From Agromyces cavernae (GTDB lineage Bacteria > Actinomycetota > Actinomycetes > Actinomycetales > Microbacteriaceae): a DNA stretch of 64,000 nucleotides. Each line of letters begins with the position of its first letter. Positions within the stretch are counted from its first letter, which is position 1. The notes beneath the pieces were generated by a model that was given only the letters and a program-made list of their open reading frames with translations, ran no database searches and was not told the origin of the DNA. Of the stretch, positions 26,017 to 34,751 are shown piece after piece. Made by a program: the position numbers and the translations under genes. The stretch is taken from contig NZ_JAJNMP010000004.1 of NCBI RefSeq assembly GCF_021044935.1, forward strand, positions 124,001 through 188,000. Direction: 5' to 3'.

Positions 26017-27948
26017 TCAGACGCCGCCGCCTCCTCCCCCGCCTCCGCCGCCGCCCGATGACCCGCCGCCGCCCGATCCGCTCGACGACGAGCTCGAGCT
26101 CGACCCCGACCACGACGCGCTCGACGCCGACGAGAACGTCGACACGCCCACCGCGAACGCACCCGCGTTGAAGCCGCTGGTGCCCGAGTACCAGTTCGGC
26201 GAGCCGCCCTCGCGCGCGTACAGCTCTGCCAATACTTCGCTCCATTCGCGTTCGAGGCCGAACAGCACCGAATAGGGCAGCAGGCGCTCGTTGAGCTTCA
26301 GTACCGTCGCGGGGTCGGGCACGGCGCCCGCACCGATGTTCGCCCCGATCACGTCGGCTGCGGCGGCACCGGCCCCCACGCCCGCCGCGCCGACCCGCAA
26401 CGCCCCGCTCGGGCTCTGCAGCACCCGCAGGCGGTCGGCCTCGGCGAGGCGGATGTAGAGGCGCAGCCCCTCGAGGTGGTCGCGCGCGGCACGCCCGGAC
26501 TCGGTGAGCGGCCGCACTCCGGCGACGATGACCACCGTCACGAGTGCCGCGACGATCGCGATGACGAACAGCAGGAACGGCCAGGGTCCGCCGCGCCGGT
26601 CGTCGAGCGCGATGATGCCGAAGACGACGCTGAGCACGGCGGCAGCGACGGCGACGACGGCGAGCAGCAGGCGGATGCCGAGGTCGGGGCGATGCCGGAG
26701 CCCGGACAGCACGACCCGCTTGTGCACGTGCTGCCGCAACGAGAGCAGCTCCCTGCCGAGCCTGGCGTCACGTGACTTCAGCGCTCGTCGTGCGCCCGGG
26801 TACGGGTTGTCGCGATAGAGCGCTCGCACGACCGACTGCGCATCGCGATCGCCGAGTTCGCCGCCGACGAAGTCGACCGCGTACCGCCTGCGCCCGGTCT
26901 CGACGACACGGAGCTCGCCGGCGACGGCACGTTCGAGGATCGTCGCCGTGACGCCCTTGCCCGCATGCCCGGCGAGGTCCGCCGCCTCCATCGCGCTGAT
27001 CCCGGCCGGCGGTTCGTACTGCGCGATGATCGTGCCGCGACCCGGGTGGTTGCGCCAGCGCCCGGCGCGCAGCACGATCGCCGTGAGCATCGCGAGCACG
27101 GCGAGCGCCGCCCCGACGGCGCCCGTGATCGCAGCGGCCGACGCCCCGAACGACTCGTCGCGCGGCTCGAAGGTGCCATCGCGGAACGCGACCGCGAACG
27201 AGAGGTTCTCGAACGGCCCCAGGCTCGCCGCCTCGGCGGTGACGGTCGGCGGGTCGACGACGAGCGAGTCGCACGGCTGGGTCGATCCCATCGGGCCGCG
27301 GTAGCAGGCGGCGTCGCCCGTGAGCGGGTCGACGAGGTCGGGATCGAGCCTCAGTTCGGCACGCACCGAGCCGAACGGCTGGCTCCACCCGGTGCCGTTC
27401 ACGTCCCAGAAGAACTCGTCGATCGCCGCGTCGTCGGGCTCGAACGTCACGTTGTGCTGGCCGTAGGTGATGACGTAGGTCTGTTCGCCGTGCACGAAGC
27501 CATCGGCACGCACCGTGACGAGCAGGAACTCGCCCGCCTCGTCGGACTCGGTCTCGAATGCGCGGGGCGCGCCCGAGGCATCCGTCACCGATTCGACGAC
27601 GAGGTCGGTGGGATGGCCGTCGTAATCGAGCGGGATCGCGCGGCGGATGCCCCGGTTCTGGTCGAACTCGGGGAACTGGGCCACGAGCGTCTCGGTGGTC
27701 TCGAGCACTGAGCGGCCGTCGGCGTCGCGCGAGAGCTCGTACACGGCGTCGAAGGACCGGAAGCTGAAGTTCTCGACGTTCGGCGCGGGTTCGCCGATCG
27801 CGGATGCCGCGGCCACGACCCGATCGCCGGGCCGGTCGTCGCCCCTCGCCGACGCGTTCGACGCCACGGCCGACGCCGCCGGAGCCGCCGTGAGCGCGGC
27901 GGCGGCGATGAGGACGGAGATGACTCGCGCGAGACCAGGTCGGGCCAT
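26017..27948 (-). CDS. DUF2207 domain membrane protein with Ser/Gly-rich C-terminus
   Basis: This 643-residue protein has a signal peptide (about 1-30), then an extracytoplasmic DUF2207 domain (about 55-260) with YELSRDADGRSVLETTETLV, NRGIRRAIPLDYDGHPTDL and YGQHNVTFEPD. A membrane helix (about 275-298), a cytoplasmic region and two adjacent helices (about 430-485) follow. The tail is extraordinary: after a conserved segment ending GTSGFNAG the last ~45 residues are Ser then almost pure Gly (a Ser-rich block, a GGGGSSGG block and a final run of eleven Gly). Function is unknown in the family; an envelope role is likely. TAGCGT, six bases before the ATG, indicates a leaderless transcript (plus 27955-27960). 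Confidence 0.85.
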   Translation of the reverse strand: MARPGLARVISVLIAAAALTAAPAASAVASNASARGDDRPGDRVVAAASAIGEPAPNVENFSFRSFDAVYELSRDADGRSVLETTETLVAQFPEFDQNRGIRRAIPLDYDGHPTDLVVESVTDASGAPRAFETESDEAGEFLLVTVRADGFVHGEQTYVITYGQHNVTFEPDDAAIDEFFWDVNGTGWSQPFGSVRAELRLDPDLVDPLTGDAACYRGPMGSTQPCDSLVVDPPTVTAEAASLGPFENLSFAVAFRDGTFEPRDESFGASAAAITGAVGAALAVLAMLTAIVLRAGRWRNHPGRGTIIAQYEPPAGISAMEAADLAGHAGKGVTATILERAVAGELRVVETGRRRYAVDFVGGELGDRDAQSVVRALYRDNPYPGARRALKSRDARLGRELLSLRQHVHKRVVLSGLRHRPDLGIRLLLAVVAVAAAVLSVVFGIIALDDRRGGPWPFLLFVIAIVAALVTVVIVAGVRPLTESGRAARDHLEGLRLYIRLAEADRLRVLQSPSGALRVGAAGVGAGAAAADVIGANIGAGAVPDPATVLKLNERLLPYSVLFGLEREWSEVLAELYAREGGSPNWYSGTSGFNAGAFAVGVSTFSSASSASWSGSSSSSSSSGSGGGGSSGGGGGGGGGGGV

Positions 27949-27954
27949 GGCCCA

Positions 27955-27960
27955 ACGCTA
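27955..27960 (-). promoter_or_regulatory. -10 element of a leaderless promoter for the DUF2207 gene
   Basis: TAGCGT on the - strand, six bases upstream of the ATG at 27948. The divergent metal-sensor promoter begins about 35 bases away. Confidence 0.5.
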
Positions 27961-27994
27961 GCGCGCCGCAGCGGCGACACGATGGAATCTTCGG

Positions 27995-28009
27995 TACCCA
28001 CCAGGGGTA
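27995..28009. promoter_or_regulatory. Operator of the CsoR/RcnR-family metal sensor
   Basis: The inverted repeat TACCC-N5-GGGTA, inside a longer GGTACCC...GGGTATCC symmetry, is the G-tract type of site bound by CsoR-family repressors. It lies just upstream of the -10 box of the sensor gene, so autoregulation is expected. It is also within 50 bases of the DUF2207 start and might affect that gene. Confidence 0.65.
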
Positions 28010-28025
28010 TCCCAGACACCGGGAG

Positions 28026-28037
28026 TATCCTGTGAGG
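28026..28037 (+). promoter_or_regulatory. -10 element of a leaderless promoter for the metal sensor
   Basis: TATCCT (28026-28031) is followed by six bases and GTG 28038. This favours GTG 28038 over the in-frame GTG at 28032, which would touch the -10 box. Confidence 0.55.
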
Positions 28038-28316
28038 GTGATCGAGGACATCAAGAAGCGCGCCCTGCACCGCACGAAGATCATCGAGGGCCAGCTGCGC
28101 GGCATCGAGAAGATGATCGAGAACGACGACTACTGCGTCGACATCATCACGCTCTCTCTCGCGGTGCAGAAGTCGCTCGCGTCGCTCAACAAGCTCCTCG
28201 TCGAGAACCACCTGCGCACGCACGTCACCGAGATGTACGAGGCGGGCGGCGAACAGCGCGATGCTGCCGTCGCCGAGCTGGTTCGCGTCTTCGAGCTGTC
28301 GAACAACCGGAGCTGA
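28038..28316 (+). CDS. CsoR/RcnR-family metal-sensing transcriptional repressor with a Cys-His-His site
   Basis: This 92-residue, all-helical protein of the CsoR/RcnR/FrmR family has the typical block LHRTKIIEGQLRGIEKMIE followed by DDYCVDII and KLLVENHLRTHV. Counting from the chosen start, the metal-ligand positions are Cys33, His58 and His62 (35, 60 and 64 if the upstream GTG is used). Copper-sensing CsoR has Cys-His-Cys (HLRHC); here the last Cys is His, as in the nickel/cobalt sensor RcnR (Cys35, His60, His64). A non-copper metal is therefore likely. It would tetramerise, bind the operator at 27995-28009 and be released by metal. A macrodomain gene follows after one base; no metal exporter is adjacent. 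Confidence 0.87.
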   Translation: MIEDIKKRALHRTKIIEGQLRGIEKMIENDDYCVDIITLSLAVQKSLASLNKLLVENHLRTHVTEMYEAGGEQRDAAVAELVRVFELSNNRS

Positions 28317-28317
28317 C

Positions 28318-28872
28318 GTGACCCGCATCGAGCTCGTCACCGGCGACATCACCGCCGAACGGGTCGATGCGATCGTGAACGCCGCCAACTCGAGCCTGCT
28401 TGGCGGTGGCGGTGTCGACGGGGCGATCCACCGCGTGGGCGGTCCGACGATCCTGGCGGAGTGCCGTGAACTCCGCGCGACGACCCTGCCCGACGGCCTG
28501 CCCGTGGGTGAAGCCGTCGCGACGGGCGCGGGGCGGTTGCACGCGCGATGGGTCGTGCACACCGTCGGTCCCGTGTGGCCGGGCCCCGGGGCGGAGGCCG
28601 AAGCGCGGCGAGAGCTGCTGCGCGCCGCCTACCGCAACTCGCTCGGGCTTGCGGCTCGGCTCGGCGCGACCTCCGTCGCGCTCCCCGCCGTCTCGGCCGG
28701 CATCTACGGCTGGCCCGCCGACGACGCCGCCGTCGTCGCACTGGCCGCCGCGAGCGCTGCGGCGCCCGAAGCGGTGCCCGTCAGTGTGCGCTTCGTGCTG
28801 TTCTCCTCCCGCATGCACGACGAGTTCCGCGCCGCGGCCGATCGACTCGGCATCGCCGTCGATCTCGGCTGA
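28318..28872 (+). CDS. Macrodomain protein, O-acetyl-ADP-ribose deacetylase type
   Basis: This 184-residue single-domain protein starts at GTG 28318, one base after the metal-sensor stop. Macrodomain blocks are GDITAERVDAIVNAANSSLL, GGGGVDGAIHRVGGP and VHTVGPVW, followed by ALPAVSAGIYGWP. The catalytic Asn in NAAN and Asp in GVDGAIH match the YmdB/MacroD deacetylases, which hydrolyse O-acetyl-ADP-ribose and remove mono-ADP-ribose from proteins. Co-transcription with a metal sensor is unexpected. A role in ADP-ribose signalling or in reversing ADP-ribosylation under metal stress is a hypothesis. Confidence 0.87.
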   Translation: MTRIELVTGDITAERVDAIVNAANSSLLGGGGVDGAIHRVGGPTILAECRELRATTLPDGLPVGEAVATGAGRLHARWVVHTVGPVWPGPGAEAEARRELLRAAYRNSLGLAARLGATSVALPAVSAGIYGWPADDAAVVALAAASAAAPEAVPVSVRFVLFSSRMHDEFRAAADRLGIAVDLG

Positions 28873-28883
28873 GGCCCGGGCGC

Positions 28884-29852
28884 TCAGGTCCCGGGCGCGG
28901 TGACGGCGAGCCACGCATCGAGATCGCTCGGCTGGTCGGTGATGATGCCGTCGACGCCGAGGGCGCTGACCTCCTGCCACCGCTCGTGGGAGTTGAGCGT
29001 GTAGCAGAGCACCGCGATCCCGGCACCGTGCAGCGCCTCGAGCGCTCCCGGCTCGGCCGAGACCGACCCCGCCGTCGTGCCGAACCCGATCACCCCGAGG
29101 CGCTCGGCCAGCGGCACGGGGTCGGCGGGCAGCTCGCGGATGAGGAGGATGCGCGGCGTCGTCGGCGACACCCGCTGCACGGCGAACAGCGTCTCGAGGC
29201 TGAAGCTCTGCAACACGACCCGCTGGCGCAGCCCGTGCCGTTCGATCAGGTCGAGCACTGTACGCACCTCGCCGGGTCGCCAGTCGGCCTTGAGCTCCAC
29301 GAGCGCACGGGCGGTCCTGCGCTCCGCGAGGGCGGTGAGGAACTCGTCGAGCGTCGGGATGCGCTCGCCGGCGTGGTCGCGGTCGTACCAGGCGCCTGCG
29401 TCGAGGCGCCGGAGCTCGGCGACGTCGACCTCACCGACCGAGCGCCGGTCGCCCGTGATGCGCTCGAGCGTCGTGTCGTGGAACAGCACGGGGACGCCGT
29501 CACGGCTGAGCTGCACGTCGGTCTCGACGAACGCGAGTTCGTCCATCGCGAGTTCGAGCGACGCCATCGTGTTCTCGGGCGCCTCGGCGCGGTCGCCGCG
29601 ATGCCCGACGATGAACGCTGCTTCGCCCGGCAGGCGCAGCGCGCCGAAGACGTCGACCGCAGACGCGGCCGTCGGGGTCGCCGCGATGAGCAGCACCGAG
29701 GCGATGGCGACGGTGCCCGCCAGGGCGCAGGCAACGCGGACTGCGCGTCGCGGTCGCACCAGGAGGCGGTCGAGCAGGGGTCGAGCGGCTGCAGGCGCGG
29801 GCGGTGCGGACGATGCGACCGAGGGGGCGGTCGCCCAGGACGAGCGGGTCAC
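28884..29852 (-). CDS. Glycerophosphodiester phosphodiesterase family protein, membrane anchored
   Basis: This 322-residue protein has a basic N-terminus and one hydrophobic segment (about 38-65, ACALAGTVAIASVLLIAATP), so it is anchored or secreted. The GDPD TIM barrel follows, with HRGDRAEAPENTMASLELAM near residue 85, ETDVQLSRDGVPVLFHD near 110 and the later ELKAD. The catalytic His pair (HRG and FHD) and metal-binding Glu/Asp are present. It would hydrolyse deacylated phospholipid or teichoic-acid-type glycerophosphodiesters outside the membrane, releasing glycerol 3-phosphate. A GTG start at 29852 is used. The promoter region carries a double GTTAC motif. Confidence 0.87.
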   Translation of the reverse strand: MTRSSWATAPSVASSAPPAPAAARPLLDRLLVRPRRAVRVACALAGTVAIASVLLIAATPTAASAVDVFGALRLPGEAAFIVGHRGDRAEAPENTMASLELAMDELAFVETDVQLSRDGVPVLFHDTTLERITGDRRSVGEVDVAELRRLDAGAWYDRDHAGERIPTLDEFLTALAERRTARALVELKADWRPGEVRTVLDLIERHGLRQRVVLQSFSLETLFAVQRVSPTTPRILLIRELPADPVPLAERLGVIGFGTTAGSVSAEPGALEALHGAGIAVLCYTLNSHERWQEVSALGVDGIITDQPSDLDAWLAVTAPGT

Positions 29853-30241: not shown

Positions 30242-31102
30242 CTACTTGAGGCTCTTCGTGTGCCAGACCGTCTTCGTCTCGGTGAACGCGGTGATGCGTC
30301 CCAACGCCGGCGCCGCCGCGTCGGCACCGCCCTCGGGTCGCAGCACCCGCTTCAGCGTGTCGGCCGCTTCGATCTCGAGCGAGACCCAGTCGAGGTCGCC
30401 GGCGCCCACGAGATCGAGCGCATTGACGTCGGAGTGGCTCGCGAGCCACGGCGCGATCTCGGCCGGCGAACCCGTCAGCACATTGACGACGCCGCCCGGC
30501 ACGTCACTCGTCGCGAGCACCTCGGCGAGGCTGATCGCCGAGAGCGGGAACCGCTCGCTCGCCACGATGACGACCGAGTTGCCGGCGACGAGCGCAGGTG
30601 CGAGCGCCGAGACGAACCCGACGAGCGACGAGTCCTGCGGCGCGATGATCGCCACGACGCCCGTGGGCTCAGGCACCGAGATGTTGAAGTAGGGGCCGGC
30701 GACCGGGTTGGCGTTGCCGGCGACCTGGGCGAACTTGTCGGCCCACCCGGCGTACCAGACCCAGCGATCGATCGCCTCGTCGACCTGGGCGGATGCCACG
30801 GCGCGCGACGCTCCCTCGGCCTCTTCGATCTCGGCGACGAACTGGGCGCGCCTGCCCTCGAGGAGTTCGGCGATGCGGTAGAGCACCTGCCCGCGGTTGT
30901 ACGAGGTCGCCCCCGACCAGCCGGAGACCGCGCCGCGCGCGGCGACGACGGCGTCGCGCGCGTCCTTGCGGGAGGCCTTGGCGACGTTCGCGAGGAATCC
31001 GCCGTCGGCGCGGAGCACCTCGTACGTGCGGCCCGATTCGCTGCGCGGGAACGCACCGCCGATGTAGAGCTTGTAGGTCTTCGGCACGGCGAGGCGGCTC
31101 AC
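30242..31102 (-). CDS. Half-length aldehyde dehydrogenase-like protein lacking the catalytic cysteine
   Basis: This 286-residue protein covers only the N-terminal, NAD-binding half of an ALDH: YKLYIGGAFPRSESGRTYEV, WVWYAGWADKFAQVAGNANP, PTGVVAIIAPQDSSLVGFVS and LAPALVAGNSVVIVASE. The catalytic Glu and Cys region and the oligomerisation part are missing; after about residue 250 it jumps to a tail ending ITAFTETKTVWHTKSLK. Its GTG overlaps the TGA of the full-length ALDH by four bases. In ALDH16 proteins a complete ALDH domain is followed by an incomplete second ALDH domain in one chain, and this gene pair looks like a split version. It is probably a structural subunit and not an enzyme alone. 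Confidence 0.8.
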   Translation of the reverse strand: MSRLAVPKTYKLYIGGAFPRSESGRTYEVLRADGGFLANVAKASRKDARDAVVAARGAVSGWSGATSYNRGQVLYRIAELLEGRRAQFVAEIEEAEGASRAVASAQVDEAIDRWVWYAGWADKFAQVAGNANPVAGPYFNISVPEPTGVVAIIAPQDSSLVGFVSALAPALVAGNSVVIVASERFPLSAISLAEVLATSDVPGGVVNVLTGSPAEIAPWLASHSDVNALDLVGAGDLDWVSLEIEAADTLKRVLRPEGGADAAAPALGRITAFTETKTVWHTKSLK

Positions 31103-32697
31103 TTCGCTGCTCCCTTCTTGGCGGCCTTGGCTGATCGGCTCGGAGCGGTTCGCGTGTTCTTCGCGGCATCCTTGGCTTCGATGCGCGGCTTCGCCGCTGC
31201 CCGACCGGCGGAAACGGACTTGGCGCCCGCTCGACCGGCGGAGATGGCCGCCTGGCCGACCGGCGCCGGCGTCAGGTACGCGGCCAGGCCATGGCGGCCG
31301 CCTTCGCGCCCATACCCCGACTCCTTGTATCCGCCGAACGGGCTCGACGGGTCGAAGCGGTTGAACGTGTTCGCCCACACCACGCCGGCGCGGAGCTTGT
31401 CGGCGACGGCGAGGATGCGGCTGCCCTTGTCGGTCCAGATGCCGGCCGAGAGCCCGTAGGGCGTGTTGTTCGCCTTGGCGATCGCCTCGGCGGGCGTGCG
31501 GAACGTGAGCACCGACAGCACCGGGCCGAAGATCTCTTCGCGGGCGATGCGGCTCGAGGTCTGCACGTTCGTGAAGATCGTCGGCGCGTACCAGAACCCG
31601 TTCTCGGGGATCTCGCACGCCACGCTCCACCGGTCGGCACCCTCGGCGACGCCGACGTCGGAGAGCATGCGGATGCGCTCGAGCTGCTCCTTCGAGTTGA
31701 TCGCCCCGATGTCGGTGTTCTTGTCGAGCGGGTCGCCGAGCCGCAGAGTCGAGAGGCGCAGCTTCAGGCGCTCGACGACCTCGTCGTGGATGTTCTCCTG
31801 GACGAGCAGGCGCGAGCCCGCGCAGCACACGTGGCCCTGGTTGAAGAAGATGCCGTTGACGATGCCCTCGATGGCCTGGTCGATCGGCGCGTCGTCGAAC
31901 ACGATGTTCGCCGCCTTGCCGCCGAGCTCGAGCGTGGCCTTCTTGTCGGTCCCCGCGATCTGCTTCGCGATCGCCCGGCCCACCGCGGTCGAGCCCGTGA
32001 ACGCGACCTTGTCGACGCCGTCGTGGGCGACGAGGGTCGCGCCGGTGTCGCCCGCGCCGGTGATGATGTTGACGACCCCGGGCGGCAGGTCGGCCTGCTG
32101 CAGGATCTCGGCGAAGATGAGCGCCGTGAGCGACGTCGTCTCGGCGGGCTTCAGCACGACGGTGTTGCCCGCGGCGAGCGCCGGGGCGATCTTCCACGAC
32201 AGCATCAGCAGCGGGAAGTTCCATGGGATCACCTGGGCGGCGACGCCGTGTGCGCGGGGGCCTGCGCCGAGCCCGGCGTGGTCGAGCTTGTCGGCCCACC
32301 CCGCGTAGTAGAAGAACCACGCTGCGACGAGCGGAACGTCGACGTCGCGCGACTCCTTGATGGGCTTGCCGTTGTCGAGCGATTCGGCGACGGCGAGCTC
32401 GCGCGAGCGCTCCTGCACGAGCCGGGCGATGCGGAACAGGTACTTGCCGCGGTCGCGACCGCTCATCTTCGACCACGTGCGGTCGTAGGCACGACGCGCG
32501 GCGGCCACCGCGTCGTCGACATCGGCCGGGTTCGCGTTCGAGATCATGGCGATGCGCTCTTCGCTCGCCGGGGAGATGGTCTGGAATGGAGTGCCGCGAC
32601 CCTCGACGAACTCACCGTCGATGAAGAGGCCGTACTGGTCGCGCAGCGACAGGATCGCCCGCGACTCGGGGGCGGGTGCGTATTCGAGGAAGCTCAT
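31099..32697 (-). CDS. Aldehyde dehydrogenase, full length, ALDH16-like first domain
   Basis: This 532-residue NAD(P)-dependent ALDH has VIPWNFPLLMLSWKIAPALA near residue 155, the glycine motif FTGSTAVGRAIA, the catalytic Glu in LELGGKAAN near 255, the catalytic Cys in FFNQGHVCCAGSR near 290 and EEIFGPVLSVL near 385. The segment WFFYYAGWADKLDH is shared with its half-length partner and with ALDH16. The last ~45 residues are an Ala/Lys/Arg-rich low-complexity tail. The gene lies downstream of deoC and upstream of the half-length ALDH. In the deoxyribose pathway it would oxidise acetaldehyde released by the aldolase, which is inferred from position. Confidence 0.88.
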   Translation of the reverse strand: MSFLEYAPAPESRAILSLRDQYGLFIDGEFVEGRGTPFQTISPASEERIAMISNANPADVDDAVAAARRAYDRTWSKMSGRDRGKYLFRIARLVQERSRELAVAESLDNGKPIKESRDVDVPLVAAWFFYYAGWADKLDHAGLGAGPRAHGVAAQVIPWNFPLLMLSWKIAPALAAGNTVVLKPAETTSLTALIFAEILQQADLPPGVVNIITGAGDTGATLVAHDGVDKVAFTGSTAVGRAIAKQIAGTDKKATLELGGKAANIVFDDAPIDQAIEGIVNGIFFNQGHVCCAGSRLLVQENIHDEVVERLKLRLSTLRLGDPLDKNTDIGAINSKEQLERIRMLSDVGVAEGADRWSVACEIPENGFWYAPTIFTNVQTSSRIAREEIFGPVLSVLTFRTPAEAIAKANNTPYGLSAGIWTDKGSRILAVADKLRAGVVWANTFNRFDPSSPFGGYKESGYGREGGRHGLAAYLTPAPVGQAAISAGRAGAKSVSAGRAAAKPRIEAKDAAKNTRTAPSRSAKAAKKGAAK

Positions 32698-32716
32698 GGT
32701 TCAAAATCCTTTCGGT

Positions 32717-32750
32717 CCCTGAGGAGGCCCGCCAGGGCCGTCTCGAAGGG
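32717..32750. repeat. REP-like palindromic element between aldehyde dehydrogenase and deoC
   Basis: A 34-base element beginning ccctgaggaggcccgc and ending ccgtctcgaaggg lies directly before the deoC stop codon. Related copies occur at 60407-60443 and, as an inverted variant, at 60461-60503 and 60521-60563. The symmetrical ends and intergenic position are typical of REP elements. It may also act as a weak intercistronic terminator. Confidence 0.65.
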
Positions 32751-33758
32751 TCAGTCGATGGTGACGTAGTCGGGACCGGAGTAGTGGCCGGTGGTCATCT
32801 TCTGGCGCTGCAGCAGCACGTCGTTCAGCAGGCTCGATGCGCCGAACCGGAAGAGGTGGGGAACGAGCCAGTCTTCGCCGACCGTCTCGGCGACCGTGAC
32901 CAGGTACTTGATGGCGTCTTTGGATGCGCGGATGCCGCCGGCCGGCTTGACGCCGACGCGGTGCCCCGTGGCGAGGTGCCAGTCGCGCACGACCTCGAGC
33001 ATGAGCAGGGTCACCGGCAGCGTCGCAGCGGGCGACACCTTGCCGGTGGAGGTCTTGATGAAGTCGCCACCTGCGAGGATCGAGAGCCACGACGCACGGC
33101 GCACGTTGTCGTAAGTGACGAGTTCGCCGGTCTCGAGGATGACCTTGAGGCTCGCGCTCGTGCCGTCGGCGCGGCGACAGGCGTCTTTCACGGCGGAGAT
33201 CTGGTCGAAGACCTGCCCGTAGCGACCGGCGAGGAATGCGCCGCGATCGATGACCATGTCGATCTCGTCGGCTCCGGCGGCGACGGCCTCTGCCGTGTCG
33301 GCGAGCTTGATCTCGAGCGACGACCGGCCGCTCGGGAACGCGGTCGCGACCGCCGCCACCGAGATGAGCCCGTCGTCGGGGTCGCCGTGGGCGCCGCCGA
33401 GGGCGTCGACCGCGTACGGCACCATGTCGCCGTACACGCAGACTGCTGCGACTCGCGGTGTCGACGGGTCGGCGGGGTCGGGGTTCACGGCCTTGGCGAC
33501 GAGCGAGCGCACCTTTCCGGGGGTGTCGGCGCCCTCGAGCGTCGTGAGGTCGACGAGCGAGATGATCTTGTCGAGCGCCCACTTCTTCGACGACGTCTTG
33601 ATCGAGCGGGTGCCGAGCCCTGCCGCGCGCTGCTCGAGGCCGACCGCGTCGACGCCGGGGATGCCGTGCAGGTACCGGCCGAGCGTCTGGTCGTCGGGTT
33701 CGCCGCCGAGCACGGCGAGCGCGCGCTCGCGGGCGGTGACGAGTGAAGTGCCTGACAT
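32751..33758 (-). CDS. deoC: Deoxyribose-phosphate aldolase
   Basis: This 335-residue class I aldolase splits 2-deoxyribose 5-phosphate to acetaldehyde and glyceraldehyde 3-phosphate. It is of the longer eukaryote-like/actinobacterial type (the E. coli enzyme is 259 residues). Key blocks are VAAVCVYGDMVPYAVDAL, the active-site region FPSGRSSLEIKLADTAEAVA, then ADEIDMVIDRGAFL, and the Schiff-base Lys in FIKTSTGKVSPAATLPVT near residue 225. The second Lys is in GVKPAGGIRASKDAIKYLV near 265. The SorC-type DeoR regulator gene is just upstream in the same direction and the ALDH pair downstream, which makes a coherent deoxynucleoside catabolic unit. Confidence 0.92.
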   Translation of the reverse strand: MSGTSLVTARERALAVLGGEPDDQTLGRYLHGIPGVDAVGLEQRAAGLGTRSIKTSSKKWALDKIISLVDLTTLEGADTPGKVRSLVAKAVNPDPADPSTPRVAAVCVYGDMVPYAVDALGGAHGDPDDGLISVAAVATAFPSGRSSLEIKLADTAEAVAAGADEIDMVIDRGAFLAGRYGQVFDQISAVKDACRRADGTSASLKVILETGELVTYDNVRRASWLSILAGGDFIKTSTGKVSPAATLPVTLLMLEVVRDWHLATGHRVGVKPAGGIRASKDAIKYLVTVAETVGEDWLVPHLFRFGASSLLNDVLLQRQKMTTGHYSGPDYVTID

Positions 33759-33806
33759 GGTGTGCGACCTGGCTTTCGTGTATGAGTGGTGAAGCAGTGG
33801 GCGGCG

Positions 33807-34751
33807 TCAGCCGTCGAGGAGGTGGAGCGCCGTGGATTCGTCGGTGACGAGCACCGAGCAGAGTCGGCTTCGAACGACGGCGTCGGCCACGGCGTGCTTC
33901 GCTGAGCCGGCGATCACGGCGATCGCCAACTGCGACGCGCGGAGCTCGTCGAGCGTGAGGCCGACGGTGCGCGCGTCGAGCGCGGGATCGACGATGTTGC
34001 CGTCGGAGTCGATGTAGCGTCCCACGACGTCGCCGACGGCGCCCTTCTGCACGAGCAGGTCGACGTCGGCGGTCGAGAGGTAGCCGCTCTCGACATGGAC
34101 CGAGCTGTGGTCGGCGGCGCCGGCGCTGAAGAGGTACGCGTCGGCCGAGCGGGCGAGGTCGATGACGCCGGCCACCACGCGGTCGGACTCGATGGCCTCT
34201 TTCGTGGAGAGCTGCTCGAGGATCGCGGGGCTCGGCAGCAGCGTGGCGCTGCCCCCGCCCTTCTGCGCGATGGCGACCGCCGTCGCGGCCGCGGTGCCGG
34301 CACGACGGTTGAGGCTGACGCCGCCGTTGATCTGCACGACGTTGACCCCTGCAGCCCACCCGTTGCGCAGGTGTTGCGAGATGTCGAAGAGGGTGCGCCC
34401 CCAGCTCACACCGAGGGTGCGCGGCACGGGTCGCAGCGCGGTGAGGTAGTCGGCGGCGGCCTGCGCGGTGCGCGCCTGCAGCTCTTCGGCCGAGACGACG
34501 CCGGCCGATGACACCACGATGGCGTCGGTGAGCCCCCGCTCGTCGCGGAGCCGACGCTCGATCGGCAGCCGTCGAGCGCGAGGATGCAGGATCTCGATGC
34601 GGATGAAGCCGCGCTGCTTCGCCTGCGCGAGCAGCCGCCCCACCTTCCACCGGGTGAGGCGCAGGGCCTGCCCGATCTCGTCCTGGGTCTTGTTCTCTTC
34701 GTAGTAGAGCTCGGCCGCCCTGATCGAGAGCAGCTCGTCGATCTCGTCCAT
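33807..34751 (-). CDS. SorC/DeoR-type sugar-binding transcriptional regulator
   Basis: This 314-residue protein has an N-terminal helix-turn-helix (about 10-55: AAELYYEENKTQDEIGQALR, LTRWKVGRLLAQAKQRGFI) and a C-terminal sugar-phosphate-binding domain of the SorC family, with TLGVSWGRTLFDISQHL near residue 105, VVQINGGVS and LFSAGAADHSSVH. B. subtilis DeoR, the repressor of deoC, belongs to this family. Its place directly upstream of deoC suggests the same job, with deoxyribose 5-phosphate as effector. GGAGGCGC precedes the ATG. Its promoter contains the 12-bp palindrome CGATGCGCATCG across the -35 region. Confidence 0.87.
   Translation of the reverse strand: MDEIDELLSIRAAELYYEENKTQDEIGQALRLTRWKVGRLLAQAKQRGFIRIEILHPRARRLPIERRLRDERGLTDAIVVSSAGVVSAEELQARTAQAAADYLTALRPVPRTLGVSWGRTLFDISQHLRNGWAAGVNVVQINGGVSLNRRAGTAAATAVAIAQKGGGSATLLPSPAILEQLSTKEAIESDRVVAGVIDLARSADAYLFSAGAADHSSVHVESGYLSTADVDLLVQKGAVGDVVGRYIDSDGNIVDPALDARTVGLTLDELRASQLAIAVIAGSAKHAVADAVVRSRLCSVLVTDESTALHLLDG

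Follow-up and report, generated by a model that had tools for sequence, protein, structure and literature searches.

The 64-kb stretch of Agromyces DNA analysed here, from a soil actinobacterium and referred to as the window, contains a co-directional run of two genes on the plus strand, in which a small metal sensor gene is followed by a gene for a macrodomain protein. The sensor gene (28038-28316, plus strand) runs from GTG 28038 to TGA 28314-28316, and its product of 92 amino acids matched PF02583 in a profile search with 80.8 bits compared to a cut-off of 22.8. An earlier in-frame GTG at 28032 is not the likely start, because the upstream sequences of many relatives show GTGATC or ATGATC at the position of 28038 and lack an in-frame start six bases before it. 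The macrodomain gene (28318-28872, plus strand) also begins with GTG, and base 28317 is the sole gap between it and the sensor stop, as the sequence-only reading of this DNA had described. Its product of 184 amino acids matched PF01661 (134 bits, cut-off 22) and additionally passed the NCBIfam equivalog NF001664, “O-acetyl-ADP-ribose deacetylase” (235, cut-off 200). The sequence GGAG within the last codons of the sensor gene (28309-28312, plus strand) could serve the macrodomain gene as a ribosome-binding site. This is no general feature, since only 7 of 30 pairs in which a macrodomain directly follows the sensor have such a motif. The run is bounded by a divergent gene for a DUF2207 membrane protein (26017-27948, minus strand; PF09972 and PF20990) and by a convergent gene for a glycerophosphodiester phosphodiesterase (GDPD; 28884-29852, minus strand; PF03009). 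Elsewhere in the window, genes for an aldehyde dehydrogenase, a DeoC-type aldolase, and a sugar-binding-domain protein lie in a row (31099-34751, minus strand) and look like a deoxyribose-use cluster.

Upstream of the sensor gene, we found the CsoR-type operator TACCC-ACCAG-GGGTA at 27995-28009 (no strand assigned), followed by a -10-like TATCCT at 28026-28031 (plus strand), 6 nt 5' of the start codon. The available text of PMC3902906 describes the operators of Streptomyces lividans CsoR as TAC-X9-GTA with G-tracts, with sites at csoR and at two separate copZA operons, and the window box matches the type 2 operator given there. For comparison, we used 80 named loci, i.e. the best 80 of 134 sensor matches, a set that is biased to close relatives. 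A perfect box lies 5' of the sensor in 43 of these loci and in all 28 of those with an adjacent P-type ATPase, so that the window operator is more than a chance match. In 55 of the 80 loci, TANNNT precedes the sensor start by 5-8 nt, compared to 42 of 16000 random positions, which suggests that the csoR-macrodomain message is leaderless. Some variation in operator geometry was evident. Where an ATPase follows the sensor, the operator lies about 10-15 nt nearer to the start than in most Agromyces and Leifsonia loci, and in L066, L067, L068, L075, L078, and L085, several of which bear mmuM (homocysteine S-methyltransferase, PF02574), the box has a spacer of four instead of five bases, one base under the published spacing.

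Sensor and macrodomain very probably share one message under this operator. Apart from the one-base gap in the window, tight spacing is common to the relatives: the inferred macrodomain start lies 1-10 nt past the sensor stop in 28 of the 30 direct pairs, and at 25 and 26 nt in the remaining two. The sequence-only reading had placed both genes on one message and had assumed a metal-responsive operator in front of the sensor; the box is indeed present, and the arrangement supports the common transcript. Alternatively, the two genes might be adjacent and not co-expressed, with the macrodomain transcribed from a promoter of its own inside the sensor gene. Such a promoter would be compatible with all our observations, and actinobacterial promoters are poorly caught by sigma-70 scans. 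However, the single-base gap speaks against it, and a crude sigma-70 scan of 27900-28950 returned no promoter-like site on either strand, so we regard separate expression as highly unlikely. The same scan returned two overlapping terminator-like matches on the minus strand inside the sensor gene.

The protein had been read as a metal sensor from the letters alone, and our analysis bears this out and specifies the metal. This is very probably copper, sensed as Cu(I), because the protein carries a Cu(I) fingerprint, lies behind an S. lividans-like operator, and has orthologues with P-type ATPase neighbours. All 137 orthologue rows, which represent relatives picked by similarity and include some species twice, have the residues Y32, C33, H58, H62, and E80. 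The C position is A77 in all 137 rows, i.e. no acidic residue is found there, and E80 aligns with Glu81 of the Mtb protein in an alignment to solved structures. His11 is likewise invariant; we assign no role to it. According to the available text of PMC4235346, a Tyr in the second shell is an accurate predictor of Cu(I) sensing in the CsoR family and is always accompanied by a His at the Y position and a Glu or Asp at the B position, and the Cu(I) sensor CsoR of Thermus thermophilus has a His in the Z position. In the window sensor, the X-Y-Z ligand set is Cys-His-His (C33, H58, H62), and the second shell consists of Tyr (A position, Y32) and Glu (B position, E80). The best solved matches of the sensor are all labelled CsoR (4adz, 2hh7, 4m1p), and its nearest named relatives are Agromyces species, with 98% to A. 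humatus, among matches that may leave out the record of the genome itself.

By tblastn, a P-type ATPase adjoins the sensor orthologue in the 28 named loci mentioned above, directly after it in 15 and facing it in 13. Motifs typical of copper ATPases were identified in 8 of 9 adjacent ATPases inspected. Among the 15 downstream ATPases, all three that were inspected have a CPH motif. Six of the 13 divergent ones were tried, and MTCASC and CPC were found in L060, L065, L071, L102, and L104; for L083, neither an ATPase nor a chaperone motif was obtained, its divergent ATPase being assigned by the tblastn match alone. Genes resembling copZ were seen in L102 and L104, and Pfam was run for L060 and L104. 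The genome contains just one other PF02583 match, beside a gene that we name CoA-disulfide-reductase-like from its sequence, which makes the window sensor the one candidate for copper within this family.

We also considered whether the sensor answers another metal or signal, i.e. nickel or cobalt as RcnR, formaldehyde as FrmR, or persulfide as CstR. It shares the His in the Z position with RcnR, and it has weak NCBIfam matches to FrmR and RcnR, far below the cut-offs (25 bits against 138 for the RcnR model NF011613); the copper sensor RicR scores higher, also below its cut-off. However, by alignment the N-terminus VIEDIKKRAL contains no W-position His, the invariant His11 being about 10 residues further, and we rejected an RcnR identity. 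In CstR, a second Cys replaces the His ligand; as His58 is found instead in 137 of 137 rows, and as the window sensor has one Cys, this identity was rejected as well. Together with the Y-C-H-H-E fingerprint, the P-type ATPase neighbours, and the CsoR structures as best-scoring solved matches, these observations leave only a very slight chance that the signal is something other than copper.

A search of the whole genome (4.07 Mb) gave five exact copies of the box and none of a reversed control pattern. About four boxes are expected from base composition (our own arithmetic, using frequencies from six stretches), so the count is not striking and single sites can be chance, a point against the explanation favoured below; it is their places that are striking. 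Besides the site before the window sensor, one box lies directly before copZ with copA downstream (L150:5056), and another immediately precedes an MFS transporter gene in the vicinity of copZ-copA (L150:6690; C2:330689 in the genome itself). A further box is found before a CPH-type copB (L151:4809), and the last lies some 190 bp upstream of an NHL-repeat gene that looks secreted (L152:2413; C4:183412 in the genome itself). The last of these may be a chance occurrence. The copZ-copA genes are located on another contig than the sensor, behind a box of their own, and TAC-X9-GTA with G-tracts is present in the boxes at the sensor itself, at copZ-copA, and at copB. CsoR probably also controls copZ-copA, copB, and the MFS gene elsewhere in the genome, the latter being a possible further copper-regulated efflux gene.

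The best solved matches of the macrodomain are 5cb3 and 1spv (E 1.2e-39, residues 2-164), both of which we take to be Escherichia coli YmdB. Of the 57 macrodomain rows, all have D34 and 56 have N24, and these Asn and Asp residues are presumably the catalytic positions of the MacroD loop; the GGGGVDGA-H and SAG-Y-WP loops are kept as well. The protein is a MacroD/YmdB-type macrodomain, and we predict hydrolase activity on ADP-ribosyl-Glu/Asp or O-acetyl-ADP-ribose. In a profile search, it was the sole PF01661 match of the genome and may thus have an important role. Two SIR2 matches, both on other contigs, make O-acetyl-ADP-ribose a possible substrate. Nothing ties the macrodomain to copper beyond the shared message.

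The pairing of sensor and macrodomain is not limited to this genome, in line with the conservation for which the sequence-only reading had suggested looking. The pair is present in 36 of the 80 named loci. In 36 genomes of the same genus other than that of the window, the sensor was found in 35 (in G007 the last part only), and a macrodomain lies behind it in 21, directly in 18 and with about 0.9 kb between the genes in three. One same-genus macrodomain match in this position (G023:C1:2175212-2175760) contains one in-frame TGA, which is either its end or the sign of a broken copy. In a family panel of 299 genomes, for which at most 11 candidates per genome were scored, we identified the sensor in 102 genomes, the macrodomain in 89 (E 1e-20), and both in 44. 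Of these 44 genomes, 22 have the two adjacent, one of the 22 with a gap of 0.9 kb, and these 22 belong to six genera. The two genes lie on different contigs in a few draft genomes. An order-level draw of 119 genomes yielded adjacency in 0 of 47 genomes of other families with a sensor-like match and a macrodomain. As judged from these adjacency counts for genus, family, and order, which were compared by hand, the pairing is a family-level trait in the panels examined.

Within this trait, what follows the sensor varies. Across the 80 named loci, the slot is occupied by the macrodomain in 30 cases, by mmuM and the macrodomain in six, by mmuM alone in two, by a P-type ATPase in 15, by a DAGK/YegS-type lipid kinase in eight, and by an M20 peptidase in two, while 17 loci have none of these in the sensor's direction. 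The lipid-kinase arrangement was observed in Microcella and less well named relatives (L117, L121, L127, L129, L130, L133, L135, L136); all eight of these loci have a perfect operator, and no ATPase was found in the flanks examined. On the sensor tree, at least 11 changes are needed to explain presence or absence of the macrodomain, although support is weak (12 of 77 branches starred). Macrodomains also occur away from the sensor: we fetched 20 such loci, and some of these genomes carry the sensor elsewhere. Three of them (L157, L160, L161) have the macrodomain, and no sensor, between DUF2207 and GDSL genes, a setting in which the sensor is found in L092 and L093. We found no support for a slot-specific macrodomain subfamily, since slot and non-slot macrodomains are interleaved and five changes are needed on the macrodomain tree. 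That tree is weakly supported (11 of 54 inner branches starred), and the starred branches alone are compatible with one origin of the slot macrodomains, which is accordingly a possibility.

The gene mmuM repeatedly adjoins the macrodomain and may form a pairing of its own with it. It lies between sensor and macrodomain in six of the 80 named loci (L067, L078, L085, L087, L099, L108) and adjoins the macrodomain in four of the 20 loci without a sensor (L157, L161, L164, L165). The macrodomain could therefore belong with mmuM as a metabolic pair in front of which the sensor landed, and the conserved unit would be mmuM and macrodomain rather than sensor and macrodomain. However, mmuM does not intervene in 30 of the 36 sensor-macrodomain loci, including the window, and 16 of the 20 sensor-free loci gave no mmuM match within about 2.5 kb. 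We consider this explanation very unlikely.

The operator was found to follow the pump. In seven named Agromyces loci (L060, L063, L065, L069, L071, L076, L089), a P-type ATPase lies between the DUF2207 gene and the sensor, and in the window DUF2207 faces the sensor directly, in the position of this ATPase. For each sensor, the 120 nt upstream were searched, and the best match to TACCC-N5-GGGTA was scored as the operator. In contrast to the 28 loci with an adjacent ATPase, all of which have a perfect operator, only 15 of the 52 loci without one do so. The loci with a macrodomain directly after the sensor show the same pattern, with perfect operators in 9 of 9 cases with a divergent ATPase compared to 4 of 21 without (p=5e-5, kinship ignored). 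When one substitution and spacers of 4-6 bases were allowed, a box was counted by hand in 11 of these 21 loci. Where no ATPase is adjacent, 4 of 27 macrodomain-bearing loci have a perfect operator, compared to 11 of the 25 that lack a macrodomain (p=0.03, kinship ignored). The window box itself is perfect at 10 of 10 positions, although no pump adjoins. Overall, this pattern of retention speaks against the macrodomain alone maintaining the operator; autoregulation may do so.

The sequence-only reading had proposed a direct link of metal sensing to ADP-ribose turnover. One part of this proposal stands, as a copper sensor and a macrodomain very probably share a message. A dedicated link is not supported, since the slot varies, the macrodomain occurs without the sensor, and the operator of the pair is often degraded where the sensor does not face a P-type ATPase. 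We rejected a dedicated sensor-macrodomain system as the main reading because of this variable slot and because operator conservation tracks the adjacent ATPase and not the macrodomain. In a rival explanation, the macrodomain would serve the copper response as a working arm: copper would raise protein or nucleic-acid ADP-ribosylation or the level of O-acetyl-ADP-ribose, and the CsoR-induced hydrolase would clear it. The persistence of the pair in the named loci and in six genera of the family panel, the intact operator and one-base spacing in the window, the sole PF01661 match of the genome, and the two SIR2 matches as possible sources of O-acetyl-ADP-ribose are in favour of this idea. However, perfect operators are scarce in direct macrodomain loci without a divergent ATPase, and, where no ATPase adjoins, rarer with the macrodomain than without it. 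Furthermore, the two genes are both present and non-adjacent in 22 of 44 family genomes and in 47 of 47 genomes from other families of the order, and neither SIR2 match is on the contig of the pair. Such a working arm appears rather unlikely to us. It is quite doubtful that copper entering the cytosol leads to damage or signalling linked to ADP-ribose and that a CsoR-induced MacroD hydrolase clears this in Agromyces, Leifsonia, and their relatives, which would make the sole detected macrodomain a copper-stress enzyme.

We therefore favour, as the probable explanation, a standard CsoR copper locus from which the pump has moved away and in which the co-transcribed macrodomain is a probably mildly copper-inducible passenger. 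The passenger status is suggested by the variability of the slot, by operators that, among direct macrodomain loci, are perfect in all 9 that have a divergent ATPase and in 4 of the other 21, and by macrodomains that occur without the sensor. Following the apo-CsoR repression and Cu(I) release known for the CsoR family, from which we infer them here, apo-CsoR would occupy the box at 27995-28009 without copper, over what would be the -35 region of the promoter. Binding of Cu(I) by C33, H58, and H62 would release CsoR, and RNA polymerase would make the leaderless csoR-macrodomain message, from which the macrodomain would be translated as a co-directional passenger. Copper would raise the macrodomain modestly, and its activity would not be needed for copper tolerance. 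With respect to its history, the locus probably derives from a divergent copA-csoR arrangement in which copA was lost, the operator stayed, and DUF2207 came to face the sensor; the direction of this change is our reading of the comparison. Against a mere passenger, the window operator is intact without an adjacent pump, which would be expected of a locus where copper control is still of importance. The single origin of the slot macrodomains with which the weakly supported trees are compatible also weighs on this side. The persistence of the pair with tight spacing across six genera might be more than a chance passenger would show, and the status of the macrodomain as sole PF01661 match may also argue for a function.

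The probable copper sensor of Agromyces and of many other Microbacteriaceae, together with its probable regulon, can thus be identified from sequence. The locus also suggests how a regulator whose pump has left can keep metal control over a new co-directional neighbour. Should the macrodomain matter in copper stress, it would make bacterial ADP-ribose turnover cleanly accessible to genetics, as the genome has only one detectable PF01661 gene. If it does not, the locus usefully cautions against deducing a shared function from operon membership with a sensor.

The sequence-only reading had noted that this is not a standard pairing, and our literature search, for which most subscription journals were outside reach, agrees with this view in that no published record of a CsoR-macrodomain pairing was found. 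The copper locus type itself is known, and we regard the pair as a CsoR copper locus with an unusual cargo. The best solved match of the window sensor is 4adz, which we take to be from S. lividans, and by alignment the third ligand is a His in the window sensor and a Cys at that place in 4adz. Only distant in sequence is 3aai (E 7.9e-7), presumably T. thermophilus CsoR (TTHA1719). The window operator and the S. lividans csoR and copZA operators have the TAC-X9-GTA form with G-tracts in common, and the available text of PMC3902906 mentions no macrodomain at the csoR site. T. thermophilus CsoR is, as far as described in the accessible part of PMC4235346, a Cu(I) sensor with a Z-position His like the window sensor. 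According to the available text of PMC10318464, it represses copZ-csoR-copA, and its operator, CCCCACCCCACCTGGGGTGGGG, is unlike the window box. A DarTG or SirTM operon was rejected, since the window neighbours are PF02583, DUF2207, and GDPD genes, no ADP-ribosyltransferase or sirtuin gene is adjacent, and the SIR2 matches are on other contigs. SirTM-linked macrodomains are encoded beside a partner gene. The DarG macrodomain is encoded beside DarT as described in the available text of PMC12170906, in which copper is present in the reference list only. The window macrodomain is like DarG and the SirTM-linked macrodomains in that a partner gene adjoins. As to the protein itself, its similarity to 5cb3 and 1spv places it with MacroD-type macrodomains such as E. 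coli YmdB and human MACROD1/2. To our knowledge, YmdB is not located behind a metal sensor, and it is this position that sets the window macrodomain apart from it.
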